A stretch of 64,000 nt of DNA from Chitinophagales bacterium (lineage in GTDB: Bacteria > Bacteroidota > Bacteroidia > Chitinophagales > Saprospiraceae), in the NCBI GenBank assembly GCA_013298845.1, contig JAAFJN010000009.1, positions 1-64,000 on the forward strand, read 5' to 3'. Numbering within the stretch: the stretch's first letter is position 1; each line of letters starts with the position of its first letter. Under the pieces are notes generated by a model that saw nothing but the letters and a program-made list of their open reading frames with translations, ran no database searches and was not told the origin of the DNA. This document shows positions 9,688-54,273 of this stretch, one piece after another. Position numbers and translations under genes: made by a program.

Positions 9688-9908
9688 GGGAGATATGAGA
9701 TATGAGTGAGGAGATATGAGATATGAGTGATGAGTTTTTTTTCTTTTAAAGTGCTTAAAATGATTGTGATACGATTGATAAATTTTAATTTATTTATCAA
9801 AAGAAGAGCGCTCTACGACGGGCAAACTCATCACTCCTCACTCCTCACTCATCACTCCTCACTCATCACTCCTCACTCTTCACTCTTCACTCTTCACTCT
9901 TCACTCTT
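9688..9908. repeat. bipartite inverted low-complexity element between convergent genes
   Basis: Left arm 9688-9729 reads GGAGATATGAGATATGAGTG repeats; right arm about 9828-9908 reads the complement-type CTCATCACTCCTCACTCTTCAC. The spacer holds CTCTACGACGGGCAAACTC (9811-9829), shared with 32076-32094. The right arm runs into the stop codon of the minus-strand gene (TGA at 9903-9901). It probably folds in RNA from both sides and may end both transcripts. Confidence 0.75.
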
Positions 9909-29928: not shown

Positions 29929-30045
29929 GAGTGATGAGTGAATAGTGAATAGTGAAGAATGAAAAGTGGATAGTATGGTCAACTATTCACTTTTCACTAT
30001 CCACTTTTCACTATTCACTTTTCACTATTCACTTTTCACTTCTTA
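29929..30045. repeat. inverted GTGAATAGTGAA / TTCACTATTCAC element
   Basis: Left arm 29929-29978 reads GTGATGAGTGAATAGTGAAG-type repeats; right arm 29982-30045 reads ACTATTCACTTTTCACTATC-type repeats, so the two pair over 35 bp or more with few mismatches around the loop ATGGTCA. It lies directly after susD and may be its terminator or a 3' RNA-protecting hairpin. Confidence 0.8.
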
Positions 30046-30071
30046 CCTTTGTGTTCAAATTGGGATTTACT

Positions 30072-30410
30072 ATGAAAAATTACCTTACGATTGCCTTAGC
30101 CGTTCTGTTCCTTGCAGCTTGTAATGGCACCTCCACTACTCATTTAAAATCAGAAACCTTTAAAGTGTGGGGAAATTGCGGCATGTGCAAAAAAACCATT
30201 GAAAAATCGTTAAAAGTATCCGGAATTGCCGACGCGGACTGGAATAAAGACACCAAAATAATGACGGTTTCTTTTGATTCTACCGCTATCTCGTTGGACC
30301 AAATTCAAAAAAATATTGCCGCCGCCGGTTACGATACCGAACAACTGCGCGGCGACGACGCTGCTTACGCCAACTTGCACAGTTGCTGCCAATACGAGCG
30401 GAAAGAGTAA
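30072..30410 (+). CDS. heavy-metal-associated (HMA) domain lipoprotein
   Basis: 112 aa from the ATG at 30072, which gives a lipoprotein signal MKNYLTIALAVLFLAACNG (Cys17). The longer reading upstream is encoded by the repeat tract and is not real. Residues 30-95 form an HMA fold with the metal-binding CxxC in GNCGMCKKTIEKSL, like copper chaperones, plus the strand DTKIMTVSFDSTAISL. A second Cys pair, SCCQYE, lies near the C-terminus. It probably binds Cu(I) or a similar soft metal at the periplasmic face. No copper ATPase is nearby. Confidence 0.8.
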   Translation: MKNYLTIALAVLFLAACNGTSTTHLKSETFKVWGNCGMCKKTIEKSLKVSGIADADWNKDTKIMTVSFDSTAISLDQIQKNIAAAGYDTEQLRGDDAAYANLHSCCQYERKE

Positions 30411-30466: not shown

Positions 30467-31909
30467 ATGAATAAAATTCTTGTAGCCAACCGGGGCGAAA
30501 TCGCCCTCCGTATTATGCGCACAGCGCGTACAATGGGCATTAAAACCGTGGCGGTTTATTCCGAAGCCGACCGCAATGCCCCCCACGTTCGTTTTGCCGA
30601 TGAAGCCTATTTATTGGGGCCTGCACCATCGGCGCAAAGTTATTTAAAGGGGGATTTAATTATCGAAATTGCCCAAAAAATTGGGGTTGATGGCATTCAC
30701 CCAGGCTACGGTTTTTTGAGTGAAAACGCCGGTTTTGCCCAAAAAGTAACCGATGCGGGCATTACTTTTATTGGCCCCCGCCCCCACAGCATCGAAATAA
30801 TGGGCAGCAAACTGGCCGCCAAAGAAGCCGCTAAAAAATACAACGTTCCCATGGTCCCCGGCATTGAAGAAGCCATTACCGACGTGCAAATGGCCGTTGA
30901 AATCGGGCGCCGCGTGGGGTATCCCATTTTAATTAAAGCCTCCGCCGGTGGAGGTGGTAAGGGCATGCGGATTGTTGAACGCGAAGAAGATACCAGCGAA
31001 CAAATGGAACGCGCCATTTCCGAAGCCGTTTCGGCTTTTGGCGACGGCTCCGTTTTTATCGAAAAATACGTCTCGTCGCCCCGCCACATCGAGGTGCAAA
31101 TCATGGGCGACACCCACGGCAATGTGGTGTATTTGTTTGAAAGAGAATGCTCTATCCAGCGTCGCCACCAAAAAGTAGTGGAAGAAGCGCCCAGTGCCAT
31201 CCTCACCCCGGAAATCAGAAAAGCAATGGGAGAAGCGGCCGTTCGGGTGGCCAAATCCTGCGATTACGTGGGCGCAGGCACCGTCGAGTTTCTGCTGGAC
31301 GACCAATTGAATTTTTATTTTCTCGAAATGAATACCCGTTTGCAGGTGGAGCACCCGGTAACGGAAATGATTACCGGACTGGATTTGGTGGAATGCCAAA
31401 TCAAAGTGGCCCGTGGCGAACAACTGCCCTTTACCCAGGATGACCTCAAAATTATGGGGCACGCCATGGAACTCCGGGTGTACGCTGAAGATCCCATGAA
31501 TAATTTTTTGCCGTCGGTGGGTACCCTGAGCGTATATCGCCGCCCCGAAGGTGAAAATATCCGCGTGGATGACGGTTACACCGAGGGTATGGAAATCCCG
31601 ATTTATTACGACCCGATGTTGGCAAAATTAGTGACCTACGGCAAAACCCGGGGCGAAGCCATTCAACGGATGCGCGAAGCCATTGCCCAATACGAAATTG
31701 AAGGCGTCGCTACGACCTTGCCCTTTGGCCGTTTTGTGATGGACCACCCCGCATTTTTATCCGGAAACTTTGACACCCACTTCGTGAAACATTATTTCAG
31801 CCCGGAGACCCTCAATCAATCAACGGAAAAGGAAGCCGAGATCGCCGCCAAAGCCGCGTTATACCTCCACCTCCAACAAAAGAAGATTCTAAAAGTCAAT
31901 TCTTTTTAG
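30467..31909 (+). CDS. accC: acetyl-/acyl-CoA carboxylase, biotin carboxylase subunit
   Basis: 480 aa. It carboxylates biotin on the carrier protein with ATP and bicarbonate. All three domains are present: N-terminal KILVANRGEIALRIMRTARTMG, ATP-grasp with the glycine loop KASAGGGGKGMRIVE (about 158-172), ERECSIQRRHQKVVEEAPS (about 225-243), EMNTRLQVEHPVTE (about 288-301) and the C-terminal biotin-carboxylase domain (LRVYAEDP). The start is the ATG at 30467, where the family begins. No biotin carrier or carboxyltransferase gene is adjacent; it could instead serve a propionyl-CoA carboxylase. The stop codon TAG lies at the edge of the TAGTGAAAAGTGAA tract. Confidence 0.92.
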   Translation: MNKILVANRGEIALRIMRTARTMGIKTVAVYSEADRNAPHVRFADEAYLLGPAPSAQSYLKGDLIIEIAQKIGVDGIHPGYGFLSENAGFAQKVTDAGITFIGPRPHSIEIMGSKLAAKEAAKKYNVPMVPGIEEAITDVQMAVEIGRRVGYPILIKASAGGGGKGMRIVEREEDTSEQMERAISEAVSAFGDGSVFIEKYVSSPRHIEVQIMGDTHGNVVYLFERECSIQRRHQKVVEEAPSAILTPEIRKAMGEAAVRVAKSCDYVGAGTVEFLLDDQLNFYFLEMNTRLQVEHPVTEMITGLDLVECQIKVARGEQLPFTQDDLKIMGHAMELRVYAEDPMNNFLPSVGTLSVYRRPEGENIRVDDGYTEGMEIPIYYDPMLAKLVTYGKTRGEAIQRMREAIAQYEIEGVATTLPFGRFVMDHPAFLSGNFDTHFVKHYFSPETLNQSTEKEAEIAAKAALYLHLQQKKILKVNSF

Positions 31910-32130
31910 TGAAAAGTGAAAAACGAATAGTGAAAAGTGTATAGTGAAAAGTGAAAAACGAATAGTGAAAAGTGTATAGTGAAAAGTGAAAAACATTTTT
32001 AAAGTAGATACAATGAACACTCTACGCTTAGTGAATCTTAGTGCATTCTTACTTTCTTAGTGATAAAAAAGAACACTCTACGACGAGCAAACTCTTCACT
32101 ATTCGTTATTCACTCTTCACTATTCACTCC
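31907..32130. repeat. bipartite inverted low-complexity element between convergent genes
   Basis: Left arm 31907-31990 has two copies of TAGTGAAAAGTGAAAAACGA-type units; right arm about 32093-32130 reads CTCTTCACTATTCGTTATTC. The spacer carries CTCTACGACGAGCAAACTC (32076-32094), shared with 9811-9829. The element includes the stop codons of both flanking genes (accC TAG at 31907; DUF692 gene TGA at 32126-32124). Confidence 0.75.
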
Positions 32131-33242
32131 CCACTTTTTTTCCACTTGTGCGCAATAGCCATTGCCGTCTCCAGCATAACCGGCGACCAACTTTCCACGC
32201 GCCAATCGCTATTGGCTAGGATAGAGGTACTTAATTGCGCCCGGGCATCGGTGACCGAGGGCGCATTTTCGAGAATACGCGACAACACAAACTGCTGCTC
32301 GAACAACCGGGCATCGCTTACGGGATCGGGCGCGATGTGGAGGTTCGCCGGGGCTAAAAAGTCGAGGTAAGGTGCGTTTTTTTGGCTATTTTGAACGATG
32401 CGGTCGAGGGTATAAAAATCGCGTTGGTATTGCTCCTGCGCCGTCGCCGTGTCGAGGGCCGTTCCCATTTGTTCCAATACCACAAATTTTAAATTCGGGC
32501 AACGCGGAATCACTTTTTCCAATAACTCAAAAACCGCAGCGGGGACCGCATCATCGTGGGTATCGCGACGAACCATGCGCTCCGGTTCGCTGGTTGTAGA
32601 TTGCCAAGAACCGCCCGAAACGTGCACTTCGCGCACCCGTTCGAGGGGATACAATTCGATAATATCCGTAAAATCTACCTCAAAATTGTGCATTTGGCAG
32701 TACAAATTGTGCAAATCGAGGATAATAAAACCGTTCACGGGCGCAATGAGCCGGGCGAGAAATTCGCCGTGCTGTTCCACTTCCCGCAAACTATAAGCGT
32801 AAGCCAGATTTTCGAGTCCAACGGGGCACTGGGCGGCTTCGCTGATGCGCGCGAGGCGGTCTTGCCCCAGGGCCATCGTAGCGGCGTTGTACGGCACACT
32901 CATGGGCGCACCCTGGTGGAAATTAGCGCCGGTCATAAACCCAAAGTGTTCGGTAACGTGGTCAAAACGGTAGTGGCGGGCCACCCGGCGAAGGTGATCG
33001 AGCCAAGTGGCCTGTTCGGGGCGCCATTGTCCCGAAAACAGGGAATAAAACACCCCGTGGCCAATCAATCGGCCTTCGGCGGCGAAAACGTGCAGGAGTT
33101 CCTCGAACCAATCGGGGACGTGGGAGCGATCATAAAGGGCATCAAATGACCACTCCAAGCCCTGCACCCGCTCAGATTCGAACAGGGGCAGGGCCGTTTG
33201 CAGGATAAAAGTATCTAAGTTACAAGCGATGGAGGTGTGCAT
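32124..33242 (-). CDS. DUF692/MNIO family multinuclear iron oxidase, putative RiPP-modifying enzyme
   Basis: 372 aa from the ATG at 33242 (MHTSIACNLDT); an earlier ATG at 33281 would overlap the peptide gene and adds 13 atypical residues. DUF692 enzymes (MbnB, TglH, ChrH) are TIM barrels with two or three irons that oxidatively rework Cys or other residues of ribosomal peptides. Candidate ligands are in place: His62 (GHGV), Glu98/His99 (TEHFGF), Glu144 (LENLAY), Asp176/His178 (DLHN), His207 (VHVSGG), Asp227/His229 (DTHDDAVP) and Glu257. The C-terminal 100 or so residues are an extra helical part. A small Cys-peptide gene lies 14 bp upstream. No separate partner (TglI/ChrI-like) gene is seen. 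Its end (SGE, stop) runs into repeat DNA. Confidence 0.85.
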   Translation of the reverse strand: MHTSIACNLDTFILQTALPLFESERVQGLEWSFDALYDRSHVPDWFEELLHVFAAEGRLIGHGVFYSLFSGQWRPEQATWLDHLRRVARHYRFDHVTEHFGFMTGANFHQGAPMSVPYNAATMALGQDRLARISEAAQCPVGLENLAYAYSLREVEQHGEFLARLIAPVNGFIILDLHNLYCQMHNFEVDFTDIIELYPLERVREVHVSGGSWQSTTSEPERMVRRDTHDDAVPAAVFELLEKVIPRCPNLKFVVLEQMGTALDTATAQEQYQRDFYTLDRIVQNSQKNAPYLDFLAPANLHIAPDPVSDARLFEQQFVLSRILENAPSVTDARAQLSTSILANSDWRVESWSPVMLETAMAIAHKWKKSGE

Positions 33243-33256
33243 ATACAACGGTGCCG

Positions 33257-33445
33257 CTATCCCATGCCGCAGGCGGGACAATCGAAGGTTTCGTTTTCTT
33301 TTTCACCGACGCCGCATTTGCCACCCATACCGGATTCGTCCTTTTTTTGGAGCAATTCCTCTTCAATTTTGGTGCAGGATGCCTGCGTGACGCCCACCGC
33401 AACGGCGACGGCAATGGTTTTGAGCAATGCTTTTGAAATTTTCAT
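33257..33445 (-). CDS. small exported Cys-peptide ending CPACGMG, candidate RiPP precursor
   Basis: 62 aa. A Lys-rich start and hydrophobic segment (4-20, AVAVAVGV) give a signal peptide; Cys24 follows (QASC, a poor lipobox). After a charged stretch come GMGGKCGVGE (39-48, Cys44) and the terminal DCPACGMG (55-62, Cys56 and Cys59). Such a layout, a signal-bearing leader and a short Cys/Gly core at the very C-terminus, resembles precursors modified by DUF692 enzymes. The DUF692 gene begins 14 bp downstream on the same strand. Which residues are modified, and the role of the product, cannot be told from sequence; a metal-binding role would fit CxxC. Not being modified (a plain metal-binding peptide) is the main alternative. 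Confidence 0.7.
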   Translation of the reverse strand: MKISKALLKTIAVAVAVGVTQASCTKIEEELLQKKDESGMGGKCGVGEKENETFDCPACGMG

Positions 33446-33568: not shown

Positions 33569-33727
33569 TCACAAATCAAATTCAAAATAATAGGCCCTCC
33601 GCTCCCGGGCTTTCCACCCTGCCGCATTACTATATGTCTCCATCGGATAAGCCGGTGTATAGTCATATTGATTACCCGTTTTGCGTTCGTAGGCTGCCAA
33701 TGGGGGGATAAAGCAGCGCCTCAAAGG
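33569..33727 (-). pseudogene. possible coding remnant after the PhyH-like gene
   Basis: An open stretch of 52 codons, no start in the first half, that reads like real protein: FIPPLAAYERKTGNQYDYTP, then AYPMETYSNAAGWKARERRA and YYFEFDL before a stop. The first in-frame ATG is at 33643, leaving only 24 codons. It overlaps the end of the PhyH-like gene by 7 bp in another frame. It could be the tail of a lost gene or chance; I do not recognise it. Confidence 0.35.
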
Positions 33728-34497
33728 TCATTAACCTTTATCCCATTGATAATCGCTTTTTCAATCGGGCAGCATTGATCGTAAGGTTGTTTTATGTTAA
33801 AATCAGTTTTGGGCAACAGGGGTGGTTGTGCCATAAATTTCGGGTTTTTTCCCCGGTGTTCCTGCGCCGCGTGCACCATAAAAGGATGGCACAAATAAAC
33901 CGTTCCGGCAGTTCCGGTGGCGGCTATTTCCTTGCGCGGTGGTAATTGATCCAGTTGTTGCGCTAATTGTACAAAGGATAACCCGGTTTCACCCGCTGTT
34001 TGCAACAAAGAGGCTACATCCAGGTGTGATCCCGCCCGAATAAGGGTTGGTGCATCATCCTCCGAAACGTCCGAAAACAAAAACAACATCAGCAGCGCGC
34101 GCCCTTTTGAACGTACATTAATCCTCCATTCAAAATAATTATCCGCGTTGTCGTCGGAAAAACTGGCATCAACGTGCCAACCCGTGTCACCGGCGGGTAC
34201 TTTACTCGGAAATCGAATGGGAAACGTTCCCAAAGTGGTTCGCGGATACCAATTATCACCCGCCAACTGGTGAAAAGTCTGGTGTAAAACGCTGGTGTTG
34301 GCGGCGGCTTTGAAAGGCTCCAGTCCCATTTCTCCAATCCTGATTACCGGTTGCGTCCACGTCAACGGATTATCGGGGTCCGCTCCCGTGGCTTTCCACA
34401 ATAGAGACCGGCATTCCGCCGCAATTTCAGCCGAAAAAGCATTTTCTATTTTCAGGTATCCTGATTCAATAAACTGTTCGATTTTTTCCGAAGGCAT
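33721..34497 (-). CDS. phytanoyl-CoA dioxygenase (PhyH) family protein
   Basis: 258 aa, cytoplasmic. A non-haem Fe(II)/2-oxoglutarate-dependent dioxygenase fold: the HxD motif in GWHVDASF (His at about 106, Asp at 108) and the distal His in HPFMVHAAQEHRG (about 208), with Arg at 214 as 2-oxoglutarate contact. The substrate is unknown; PhyH relatives hydroxylate lipids, amino acids and natural products. It lies upstream of the DUF692/peptide pair on the same strand, but a gap of 275 bp separates them, so a link is only a possibility. Length is normal. Confidence 0.85.
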   Translation of the reverse strand: MPSEKIEQFIESGYLKIENAFSAEIAAECRSLLWKATGADPDNPLTWTQPVIRIGEMGLEPFKAAANTSVLHQTFHQLAGDNWYPRTTLGTFPIRFPSKVPAGDTGWHVDASFSDDNADNYFEWRINVRSKGRALLMLFLFSDVSEDDAPTLIRAGSHLDVASLLQTAGETGLSFVQLAQQLDQLPPRKEIAATGTAGTVYLCHPFMVHAAQEHRGKNPKFMAQPPLLPKTDFNIKQPYDQCCPIEKAIINGIKVNDL

Positions 34498-34544
34498 TTT
34501 ACATAATTATTAATGGGAGGCTGTCTCACAAGCAAACACTCCAG

Positions 34545-34620
34545 TGTTCAAAAAATCGGCGTTCAATGTTCAAAAAATCGATGTTCGGCGTTCGGTGTTC
34601 GATGTTCGATGTTCAAAAAA
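34545..34620. repeat. GTTCAAAAAATCG/GTTCGATGTTCG low-complexity tract
   Basis: Seven or more degenerate copies of a TGTTCAAA/TGTTCGAT/GTTCGGC unit. It lies between the PhyH-like gene and the broken CPACGRG reading frame. This looks like slippage-generated sequence with no visible coding content. Confidence 0.7.
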
Positions 34621-34627
34621 AGGTATT

Positions 34628-34756
34628 TTATCCCCGGCCACAAGCGGGACAATTCAAGGGGGCGTAGCCATTTTCGCCGGTGCTGTGTTGGCTGTTTTCA
34701 CTGTTGATAAAACTACTGCAAAGACACTTGGTTGCAAGTAAAGGGTTGGGGCTGAA
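34628..34756 (-). pseudogene. start-less reading frame ending NCPACGRG, decayed peptide gene?
   Basis: An open frame of 42 codons ends in NCPACGRG and a stop, matching the tail DCPACGMG of the peptide at 33257-33445. It has no ATG or GTG. One extra base in the run of five G/C at 34658-34662 would instead join the tail to a frame reading VVLSTVKTANTAPAKMATPP, which also lacks an ATG but looks like a leader. It overlaps the end of the VOC gene. It may be a decayed or frameshifted precursor copy; the match is short. Confidence 0.35.
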
Positions 34757-35132
34757 TTAAATCCCACAAATTACCGTAACAATCCTTAAACACCGATACC
34801 ACACCGTAAGGCTCCGTGGCGGGTTCGCGGACAAATTCCACCCCTTTTGCGCGGTAATTGTGGTAATCGCGCCAAAAATCGTCGGTGTGCAGGAACAGAA
34901 AAACCCGGCCGCCGGTTTGGTTACCCACCCGCGAAGTTTGCTCGTCGTTGGCGGCTTGGGCCAACAAAATCGAGCAACCCGCACCGCCCGGCGGCCGCAC
35001 CACCACCCACCGTTTGGTGGCGCTCATAACGGTGTCTTCCAGTAGTTCAAAACCGAGGGTGCGGGTGTAAAAATCAATGGCTTTGTCGTAATCATCCACG
35101 ACCAGCGCAATTTGTACCAGTTGTTGTTTCAT
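34713..35132 (-). CDS. VOC (glyoxalase/bleomycin resistance/dioxygenase) superfamily protein
   Basis: 139 aa, cytoplasmic. Vicinal-oxygen-chelate fold with two beta-alpha-beta-beta-beta units: VQIALVVDDYDKAIDFYTRTLGFELLED at the start and GVEFVREPATEPYGVVSVFKDCYGNLWDLIQ at the end. The usual metal-binding Glu near the C-terminus is replaced (WDLIQ), and the first His position is Gln, so metal binding is doubtful and the function is unassigned. Length is typical. Confidence 0.88.
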   Translation of the reverse strand: MKQQLVQIALVVDDYDKAIDFYTRTLGFELLEDTVMSATKRWVVVRPPGGAGCSILLAQAANDEQTSRVGNQTGGRVFLFLHTDDFWRDYHNYRAKGVEFVREPATEPYGVVSVFKDCYGNLWDLIQPQPFTCNQVSLQ

Positions 35133-39965: not shown

Positions 39966-40697
39966 ATGAAGCACCTCTTAATAACACCATTATTATTCAC
40001 CGTTTTTGCGCTCGCGGCCCAGAAGCCGGACCATGCACCGCGCAAAGACACCCAAACAAATTTATCAAAAAAGATGACCGTAGAAATTTGGTCGGACGTG
40101 ATGTGTCCGTTTTGTTATATTGGAAAACGCAAATTTGAGCAGGCACTCGCCCAATTTGAAGGCCGCGATAGTGTAGAAGTGATTTGGCGGAGTTTTCAGT
40201 TGGATCCTTCTTTACAAACGGATACCACCAAAACCGTGGCCGAGTCATTGGCCGAAAAAAAGGGTTGGTCGAAGGAAGAAACCGACAAAATGACGCAATA
40301 CGTGACCGATATGGCCCAACAAGTGGGTTTGGAATACCGTTTTGAAAAGGCCGTGGTAGCCAATTCTTACGATGCGCATCGGTTTACGCATTTTGCCAAA
40401 ACGAAAGGCAAACAAATTGAAGCGGAAGAACAGTTATTTGCCGCGTATTTTACCGAAGGAAAAAATACCGCCGACCACGCAACACTGGCGCAATTGGGCG
40501 CGGCCATTGGTTTGGACGAAAAAGAAGTATTGGAAGTGCTGGCCTCCAAGGCCCATAGCAGCGATGTGGACGAAGATATTTATACAGCGCGTCAATTTGG
40601 TATCAACAGCGTACCGTTTTTTGTTTTTAACCGCAAAAAAGCCGTTTCCGGCGCTCAAGACCCACAGGTGTTTTTGAAAGCGATGAGAGAGGAGTGA
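39966..40697 (+). CDS. DsbA family oxidoreductase (FrnE-like)
   Basis: 243 aa. From residue 37 on, MTVEIWSDVMCPFCYIGKRKFEQAL begins the FrnE/DsbA-like thioredoxin fold with the redox CPFC motif (47-50) and the helical insert, then SVPFFVFNRKKAVSGAQ with the cis-Pro loop. Usual FrnE proteins are cytoplasmic and start near residue 37; here the ATG at 39966 adds a signal-peptide-like MKHLLITPLLFTVFALAAQ, suggesting export. A start at 40074 would give the cytoplasmic form. Partner proteins are not obvious nearby. Its stop codon lies in GGAGTGAAAAGTGAAG repeat DNA. Confidence 0.88.
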   Translation: MKHLLITPLLFTVFALAAQKPDHAPRKDTQTNLSKKMTVEIWSDVMCPFCYIGKRKFEQALAQFEGRDSVEVIWRSFQLDPSLQTDTTKTVAESLAEKKGWSKEETDKMTQYVTDMAQQVGLEYRFEKAVVANSYDAHRFTHFAKTKGKQIEAEEQLFAAYFTEGKNTADHATLAQLGAAIGLDEKEVLEVLASKAHSSDVDEDIYTARQFGINSVPFFVFNRKKAVSGAQDPQVFLKAMREE

Positions 40698-40725
40698 AAA
40701 GTGAAGAGTGAATAGTGAAAAATGT

Positions 40726-53830: not shown

Positions 53831-54273
53831 TAGTGAAAAGTGAATAGAGAAAAGTAAAAAGTTTTTTATTTTATAAGAGCATAAAAAACAAATTTTAAAA
53901 AAAATATTGTAATTTCGTTGGCTTTGTTGACTAAAAGACACCGACTATCCCGACCTGAAACTTTTTAACAGATTTCATCAAGATTGCGGTAAACTAATTG
54001 TCATGCTGGTCTCCTCCATTAAAACTACCCCAAAAGGAATTACCAAGTAGAACATCATTTTACACATCGCTGCACTCTAAATCATCCAACCACCATTAAC
54101 TCAACTTTTCACTCTTCACTCTTCATTTATCACTCTACACTTTTCACTCTTCACTCTTCATTTATCACTCTACACTTTTCACTCTTCACTCTCCATTTAT
54201 CACTCTACACTTTTCACTCTTCACTCTTCATTTATCACTCTTCACTTTTCACTCTTCACTTTTCACTATTATC
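53831..54273. repeat. low-complexity inverted element with 35-bp tandem repeat
   Basis: Left arm 53831-53863 reads AGTGAAAAGTGAATAGAG. Right arm 54109-54273 reads TCACTCTTCAC-type repeats; inside it a 35-bp unit starting CTTCATTTATCACTC repeats at 54121, 54156, 54191 and 54226. The 245 bp between the arms are AT-rich with no gene. The right arm lies just before the next promoter. Confidence 0.75.

Follow-up and report, generated by a model that had tools for sequence, protein, structure and literature searches.

Genes and features of the locus

The window, the whole stretch of DNA analysed, comprises 64,000 nucleotides of contig JAAFJN010000009.1 from a Chitinophagales bacterium (assembly GCA_013298845.1). 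On its minus strand, a gene for a 62 aa precursor peptide (33445–33257, with the stop codon at 33257–33259) precedes a gene for an MNIO (DUF692) enzyme (32124–33242), the predicted maturase, with 14 bp between the two. The peptide ORF begins with MKISKALLKT and shows a hydrophobic leader, an internal KCGVGE segment and a terminal CPACGMG (33260–33280), in agreement with the earlier note, which had described a peptide with a signal-like leader and these two segments. Against the NCBIfam model NF050125 (‘chryseobasin-related MNIO class RiPP peptide’), the peptide scored 46.4 bits, above the cut-off of 40, while the ChrA model NF050124 gave no match at E values up to 1. A plasmid search with the peptide as query also produced no match.

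Judged from the sequence and from a Cys position kept across the precursors, residues 1–23 (MKIS to QAS; 33377–33445, minus strand) probably form a lipoprotein signal, which the earlier note had not seen, and the product would therefore be membrane-anchored. The lipobox Cys would be Cys24 (33376–33374, minus strand). A Cys was found at this place in 88 of the 89 tabulated precursors, the window peptide included, and the residue at −1 was Ser, Ala or Gly in all 88. The lipobox of the window peptide, QASC, retains the Cys but appears atypical: Gln at −3 was seen in only 2 of the 88 precursors, so that lipidation is less certain than for the characterised homologue DybA.

The residues following the lipobox Cys were compared to the LES consensus, as given in PMC5080379. 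With the Cys counted as +1, Lys was present at +3 in 28 of 76 non-redundant precursors (mean of 10.8 in 2000 tail shuffles, none of which reached 28) and C-x-K-[DE]2 in seven of the 76 (shuffle mean 0.5, none reaching 7). The control was rough and local: a regular expression selected 49 lipoprotein-like neighbours, three of them MNIOs taken in by mistake. It gave 11/49 and 1/49, respectively, and because of these values no family-specific surface-export signal is claimed. The window peptide itself continues with TKIEEE after the lipobox Cys, which is not the full C-x-K-[DE]2 pattern.

The enzyme gene encodes 372 aa when read from the ATG at 33242 (MHTSIACNLD), from which residue numbers are counted. 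An in-frame TTG at 33281, listed as the ORF start, would overlap the peptide gene and is the less likely start. The DUF692 assignment was confirmed by a match to PF05114 at 4.4e-30, the sole match to this family (E up to 0.001) in the assembly (6.37 Mb, 98% complete). The score on the ChrH model NF050165 was 376.8 bits, below the equivalog cut-off of 600, and the scores on the HvfB and BufB equivalogs (67.8 and 86 bits) did not reach the cut-offs of 360 and 310. The full set of expected iron ligands, claimed earlier, finds support at the level of sequence, with the candidate positions H62, E98, H99, E144, D176, H178, N179, H207, D227, H229 and E257 invariant in 54 aligned enzymes. By our reading of the motif context, N179, D227 and H229 would be the counterparts of the HvfB residues N175, D242 and H244 reported in PMC13419390.

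An AF2 model based on the 54 aligned window and locus enzymes had a mean pLDDT of 91.5 and a TglH/MbnB fold; the best solved matches in Foldseek were TglH (8hci, 8hi7), MbnB (7tcr and others) and 3bww. TglH 8HCI can be aligned to the enzyme over residues from roughly 116 to 267. After the barrel part, the model continues with C-terminal helices at 311–326, 330–339 and 354–371. An extra C-terminal helical domain is described in PMC12636315 as a mark of ChrH-family enzymes.

Conservation and assignment of the pair

A profile scan of genome contigs with the enzyme identified 218 relatives, the closest of which were 62% identical or less, and the best 80 of the 218 loci were kept. In 79 of these 80, one or more peptides with a C..CG.G-stop end were found upstream of the enzyme gene and on its strand. 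The 79 loci held 88 such peptides, with two in each of nine loci. The single miss (L041) belongs to a genome, G003, with a precursor on another contig. In that genome the precursor (L156, contig C450) ends in CAACGMG, and the MNIO (L041/L020, contig C160) has no precursor beside it. Among the 89 tabulated peptides, window included, the core was CPACGMG in 60, CPGCGMG in 12, CPACGLG in 5, CPGCGLG in 4 and another form in 8. Within the genus of the window, a strong enzyme match (E below 1e-140) was obtained in only 9 of 36 other genomes examined, and the enzyme is thus patchy in the genus.

No conserved third gene was apparent, as the commonest neighbour family besides enzyme and precursor occurred in 10 of 81 loci, counting ORFs of 70 aa or more and with some loci being short. 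SusC- and SusD-like families, named by eye, were present in 10 and 8 of the 81 loci, respectively, the window among them; such importers are reported to co-occur often (PMC12636315).

The pair of Dyadobacter crusticola DSM 16708 (L054) was scored as a control. We take this pair to be the dybA/dybH of PMC12636315, from strain name and gene order. Its peptide reached 61.1 bits on NF050125 and its enzyme, 57% identical to the window enzyme over 369 columns, reached 384.2 bits on NF050165, the same score range as the window enzyme and likewise below 600; the comparison rests on these two enzymes, with no Chryseobacterium ChrH among those scored. Because of the Dyadobacter-like scores and the 57% identity, the window pair was grouped with DybA/DybH, below the Chryseobacterium-type equivalog. 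The sequence data therefore support an assignment as RiPP precursor and maturase, in a two-gene unit of the DybA/DybH (chryseobasin-related) type. By analogy with the characterised pair, membership of this group together with its MNIO chemistry is given a probability of about 0.92.

The proposal of a DUF692 enzyme paired with a RiPP precursor, with a terminal CPxCGxG core and a setting in the Bacteroidota, was thus borne out by the NF050125 score, the 79 of 80 homologous loci and the identity to the D. crusticola enzyme. The description of the system as little described did not stand. The family is known experimentally from chryseobasin (2023, PMC10214503) and from DybA/DybH (preprint of November 2025, PMC12636315), and an NCBIfam model is dedicated to it. 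The window pair adds one more, slightly unusual member to a kind described in 2023–2025; it is not a new system.

According to PMC12636315, DybH alone installs a modification of −4 Da at CPACGMG, consisting of a macrocycle and a hydantoin with one free thiol; the heptapeptide suffices for recognition and a partner protein is not needed. The same source reports triacylation of DybA at the lipobox Cys upon expression in E. coli, and states that the function of the DybA group is unclear. The window pair shares with DybA/DybH the two-gene order, the terminal CPACGMG, the Cys at the lipobox place, a lone MNIO with a C-terminal helical domain, and the lack of a visible partner gene beside the pair. 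It differs in the length of the peptide (62 versus 50 aa), in the extra Cys44, in the lipobox (QASC versus ITAC in Dyadobacter) and in a second, remnant CPACGRG end upstream.

With chryseobasin (ChrA/ChrH(I) of Chryseobacterium, PMC10214503), the window pair has in common the CPACGMG core and a ChrH-type enzyme. However, the enzyme lies below the NF050165 cut-off, the peptide lacks an NF050124 match and has a third Cys, and no ChrI, ChrE or ChrP was found among the eight window neighbours scanned. S-methylation of the window peptide is not expected but conceivable, as the closest relatives found are at most 62% identical and no well-supported (starred) branch of the enzyme tree groups the window enzyme with others. 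The oxazolins and bufferins (HvfA-HvfB and BufA-BufB) are likewise MNIO-modified, secreted or lipidated Cys peptides, but their core motif differs and the window enzyme scores far below the HvfB and BufB cut-offs.

The same enzyme chemistry could instead act on a peptide that is cleaved by signal peptidase I, as in ChrA, and released without lipidation. Signal peptidase I signals are reported in ChrA and MelA1 (PMC12636315), the Gln at −3 of QASC would in our judgement make a cut after an ASC-like site conceivable, and one relative lacks any lipobox Cys; this precursor (L104, 5696–5971) ends in CPGCGMG and scored 34.7 bits on NF050125, below 40. Against release stand the near-constant lipobox Cys with Ser, Ala or Gly before it and the similar G003 peptide, which keeps SSCTKIEE where the window peptide has ASCTKIEE. 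Release by signal peptidase I is accordingly regarded as unlikely, and lipidation, by analogy with DybA, as likely.

The second CPACGRG end and neighbouring genes

A second end of this type is found in a start-less open frame ending LNCPACGRG-stop (34628–34756, minus strand). There is no ATG, GTG or TTG in frame and only about 34702–34631 resembles the family, matching positions 31–56 of the NF050125 profile with 15.7 bits (E 0.019), below the cut-off of 40. The strict CPxCGxG-stop pattern had two matches in the 6.37 Mb assembly, this one and the intact core 1.35 kb away, both at the window locus, and the reversed control pattern had none. At another locus, L063, the more distant of two precursors has a start of its own and ends in CIACGRG, and a decayed tandem copy is for this reason the simplest reading; from its sequence, the frame is probably what is left of a second precursor. 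A 22-nt TGTTCAAAAAATCG-type repeat occurs in three copies (34542–34628) directly next to the remnant, and repeats of this kind could have contributed to a rearrangement here.

Two further readings were discarded. One was that a frameshift had joined a VOC protein to a CPACGRG tail; of 40 genomes searched, 19 gave a VOC match at 1e-20, the window's own among them, and the 18 relatives in other genomes all end without such a tail. A genome with many tagged proteins is also out in this case, as the strict pattern occurs at two places only, both at the locus; a looser C-terminal pattern gave at least 10 matches versus 13 for its reversed control, and these matches are therefore noise.

The pair is flanked by a convergent biotin carboxylase gene on one side and a PhyH gene on the other. 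The latter (33721–34497, minus strand) lies between the peptide gene and the remnant, with a VOC gene (34713–35132, minus strand) upstream of it. Both could be thought of as tailoring enzymes of the same cluster, being the next genes upstream on the strand of the pair and having the CPACGRG end between them. However, no homologue of either was detected in the MNIO loci compared (E up to 1e-4), and PhyH is separated from the peptide gene by a gap of 275 bp. In the genus members that also have the MNIO, VOC was on another contig than the enzyme in all seven with a VOC match, and PhyH in all four with a PhyH match, many of these assemblies being fragmented, and no CPxCGxG end (nor the wider C..CG.G form) was present in the fetched stretches around the 18 VOC relatives. 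A tailoring role for these genes is thus very improbable.

Among the eight neighbours scanned with Pfam, no gene for a partner protein was found. The gene two positions away from the MNIO, on the opposite strand (29952–30410), encodes a small protein that looks like a lipoprotein and matches a heavy-metal-associated domain (PF00403, 1.5e-9); it had no homologue in the MNIO loci compared. Arrays of the heptamer TTCACT[A/C/T] lie between genes at 9826–9908, 29930–30041, 31907–32135, 40692–40721, 53832–53862 and 54104–54267, with 30 matches to a 13-mer at up to one mismatch versus 0.04 expected. At 29930–30041 and again at 31907–32135, two arrays face each other in inverted orientation, the second such pair lying where the biotin carboxylase and MNIO genes converge.

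The additional cysteine and the proposed working of the pair

Between lipobox and core, the window peptide carries an extra Cys44 within KCGVGE (33314–33316, minus strand). The CGVGE segment singled out in the earlier note is present, but as a motif it is not conserved in the family: among the tabulated precursors, all that is shared is a Cys in this part of the peptide, chiefly by Saprospiraceae-like members. At least one Cys between lipobox and core was found in 40 of the 89 tabulated precursors. When the trait was placed on the enzyme tree (36 with and 44 without; 80 of 81 rows scored), seven changes were needed, compared to 18 to 32 in 300 label shuffles; the tree was made by a quick method, with 28 of its 78 inner branches open. 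The extra Cys is therefore a lineage trait. The trait was lacking in the Dyadobacter, Spirosoma-group, Chitinophaga, Hymenobacter and Pontibacter rows. Saprospiraceae-like rows and some of Fluviicola commonly carry it, among them the culturable Flavilitoribacter nigricans (L059); L104 and L062 (Fluviicola chungangensis) are without it. The surroundings of the Cys vary (KCVKP, EKCEEN, ERCTTD, EKCNIP), and the L053 precursors read CGVGEEG and CVVGEEG.

A further arrangement, HxxxCxxxCxx[D/N]H, was observed between lipobox and core in 11 precursors from 10 loci, upstream of the MNIO in each (L028, L034, L042, L043, L052, L059, L063, L092, L093 and L102), and is absent from the window peptide. From its sequence, it is a possible metal or disulfide site.

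That Cys44 is a second modification site, giving a product with two different modifications, is scarcely probable: KCG resembles the EGKCG of oxazolins, a Cys falls in the same region in 36 of 80 scored pairs and L053 carries similar segments, but its context is not conserved and the one MNIO found in the genome is of a type reported to recognise the C-terminal heptapeptide alone (PMC12636315).

The preferred reading, DybA/DybH-type modification followed by lipidation, has its first three steps inferred from the characterised homologue. The peptide would be synthesised carrying a lipoprotein signal at its N-terminus. The MNIO would, in the cytoplasm, recognise the C-terminal CPACGMG without a partner protein and, using O2 and a mixed-valent iron cluster, carry out a four-electron oxidation (−4 Da), linking the two core Cys residues in a macrocycle and forming a hydantoin, with one thiol left free. 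Lgt and signal peptidase II would then process the signal at Cys24, yielding a lipid-anchored peptide with the ring at its free C-terminus. As a conjecture, the enzyme would leave Cys44 as it is, and this residue may then pair with the thiol set free in the core or take part in metal binding; in principle, its modification or an interfering effect is also conceivable.

The main text of PMC12636315 was not seen to mention the extra Cys, and within the finding only the extra-Cys lineage had no description in the literature consulted. It is possible, though doubtful, that the Saprospiraceae-like members, the window pair included, form a distinct DybA sub-type in which one or more extra Cys, placed within HxxxCxxxCxx[D/N]H in 11 other precursors, and the thiol left free by the MNIO together make a metal- or redox-active lipopeptide, not a mere ring-tipped anchor. 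As for the biological role, a thiol- or metal-related one in the cell envelope is tentatively the likeliest. A lipidated peptide with a C-terminal ring belongs to a product class described only in 2023–2025. That some precursors lie in tandem or apart from the MNIO suggests an enzyme able to act on more than one substrate, and the extra-Cys lineage provides a natural comparison set for the role of the free thiol.
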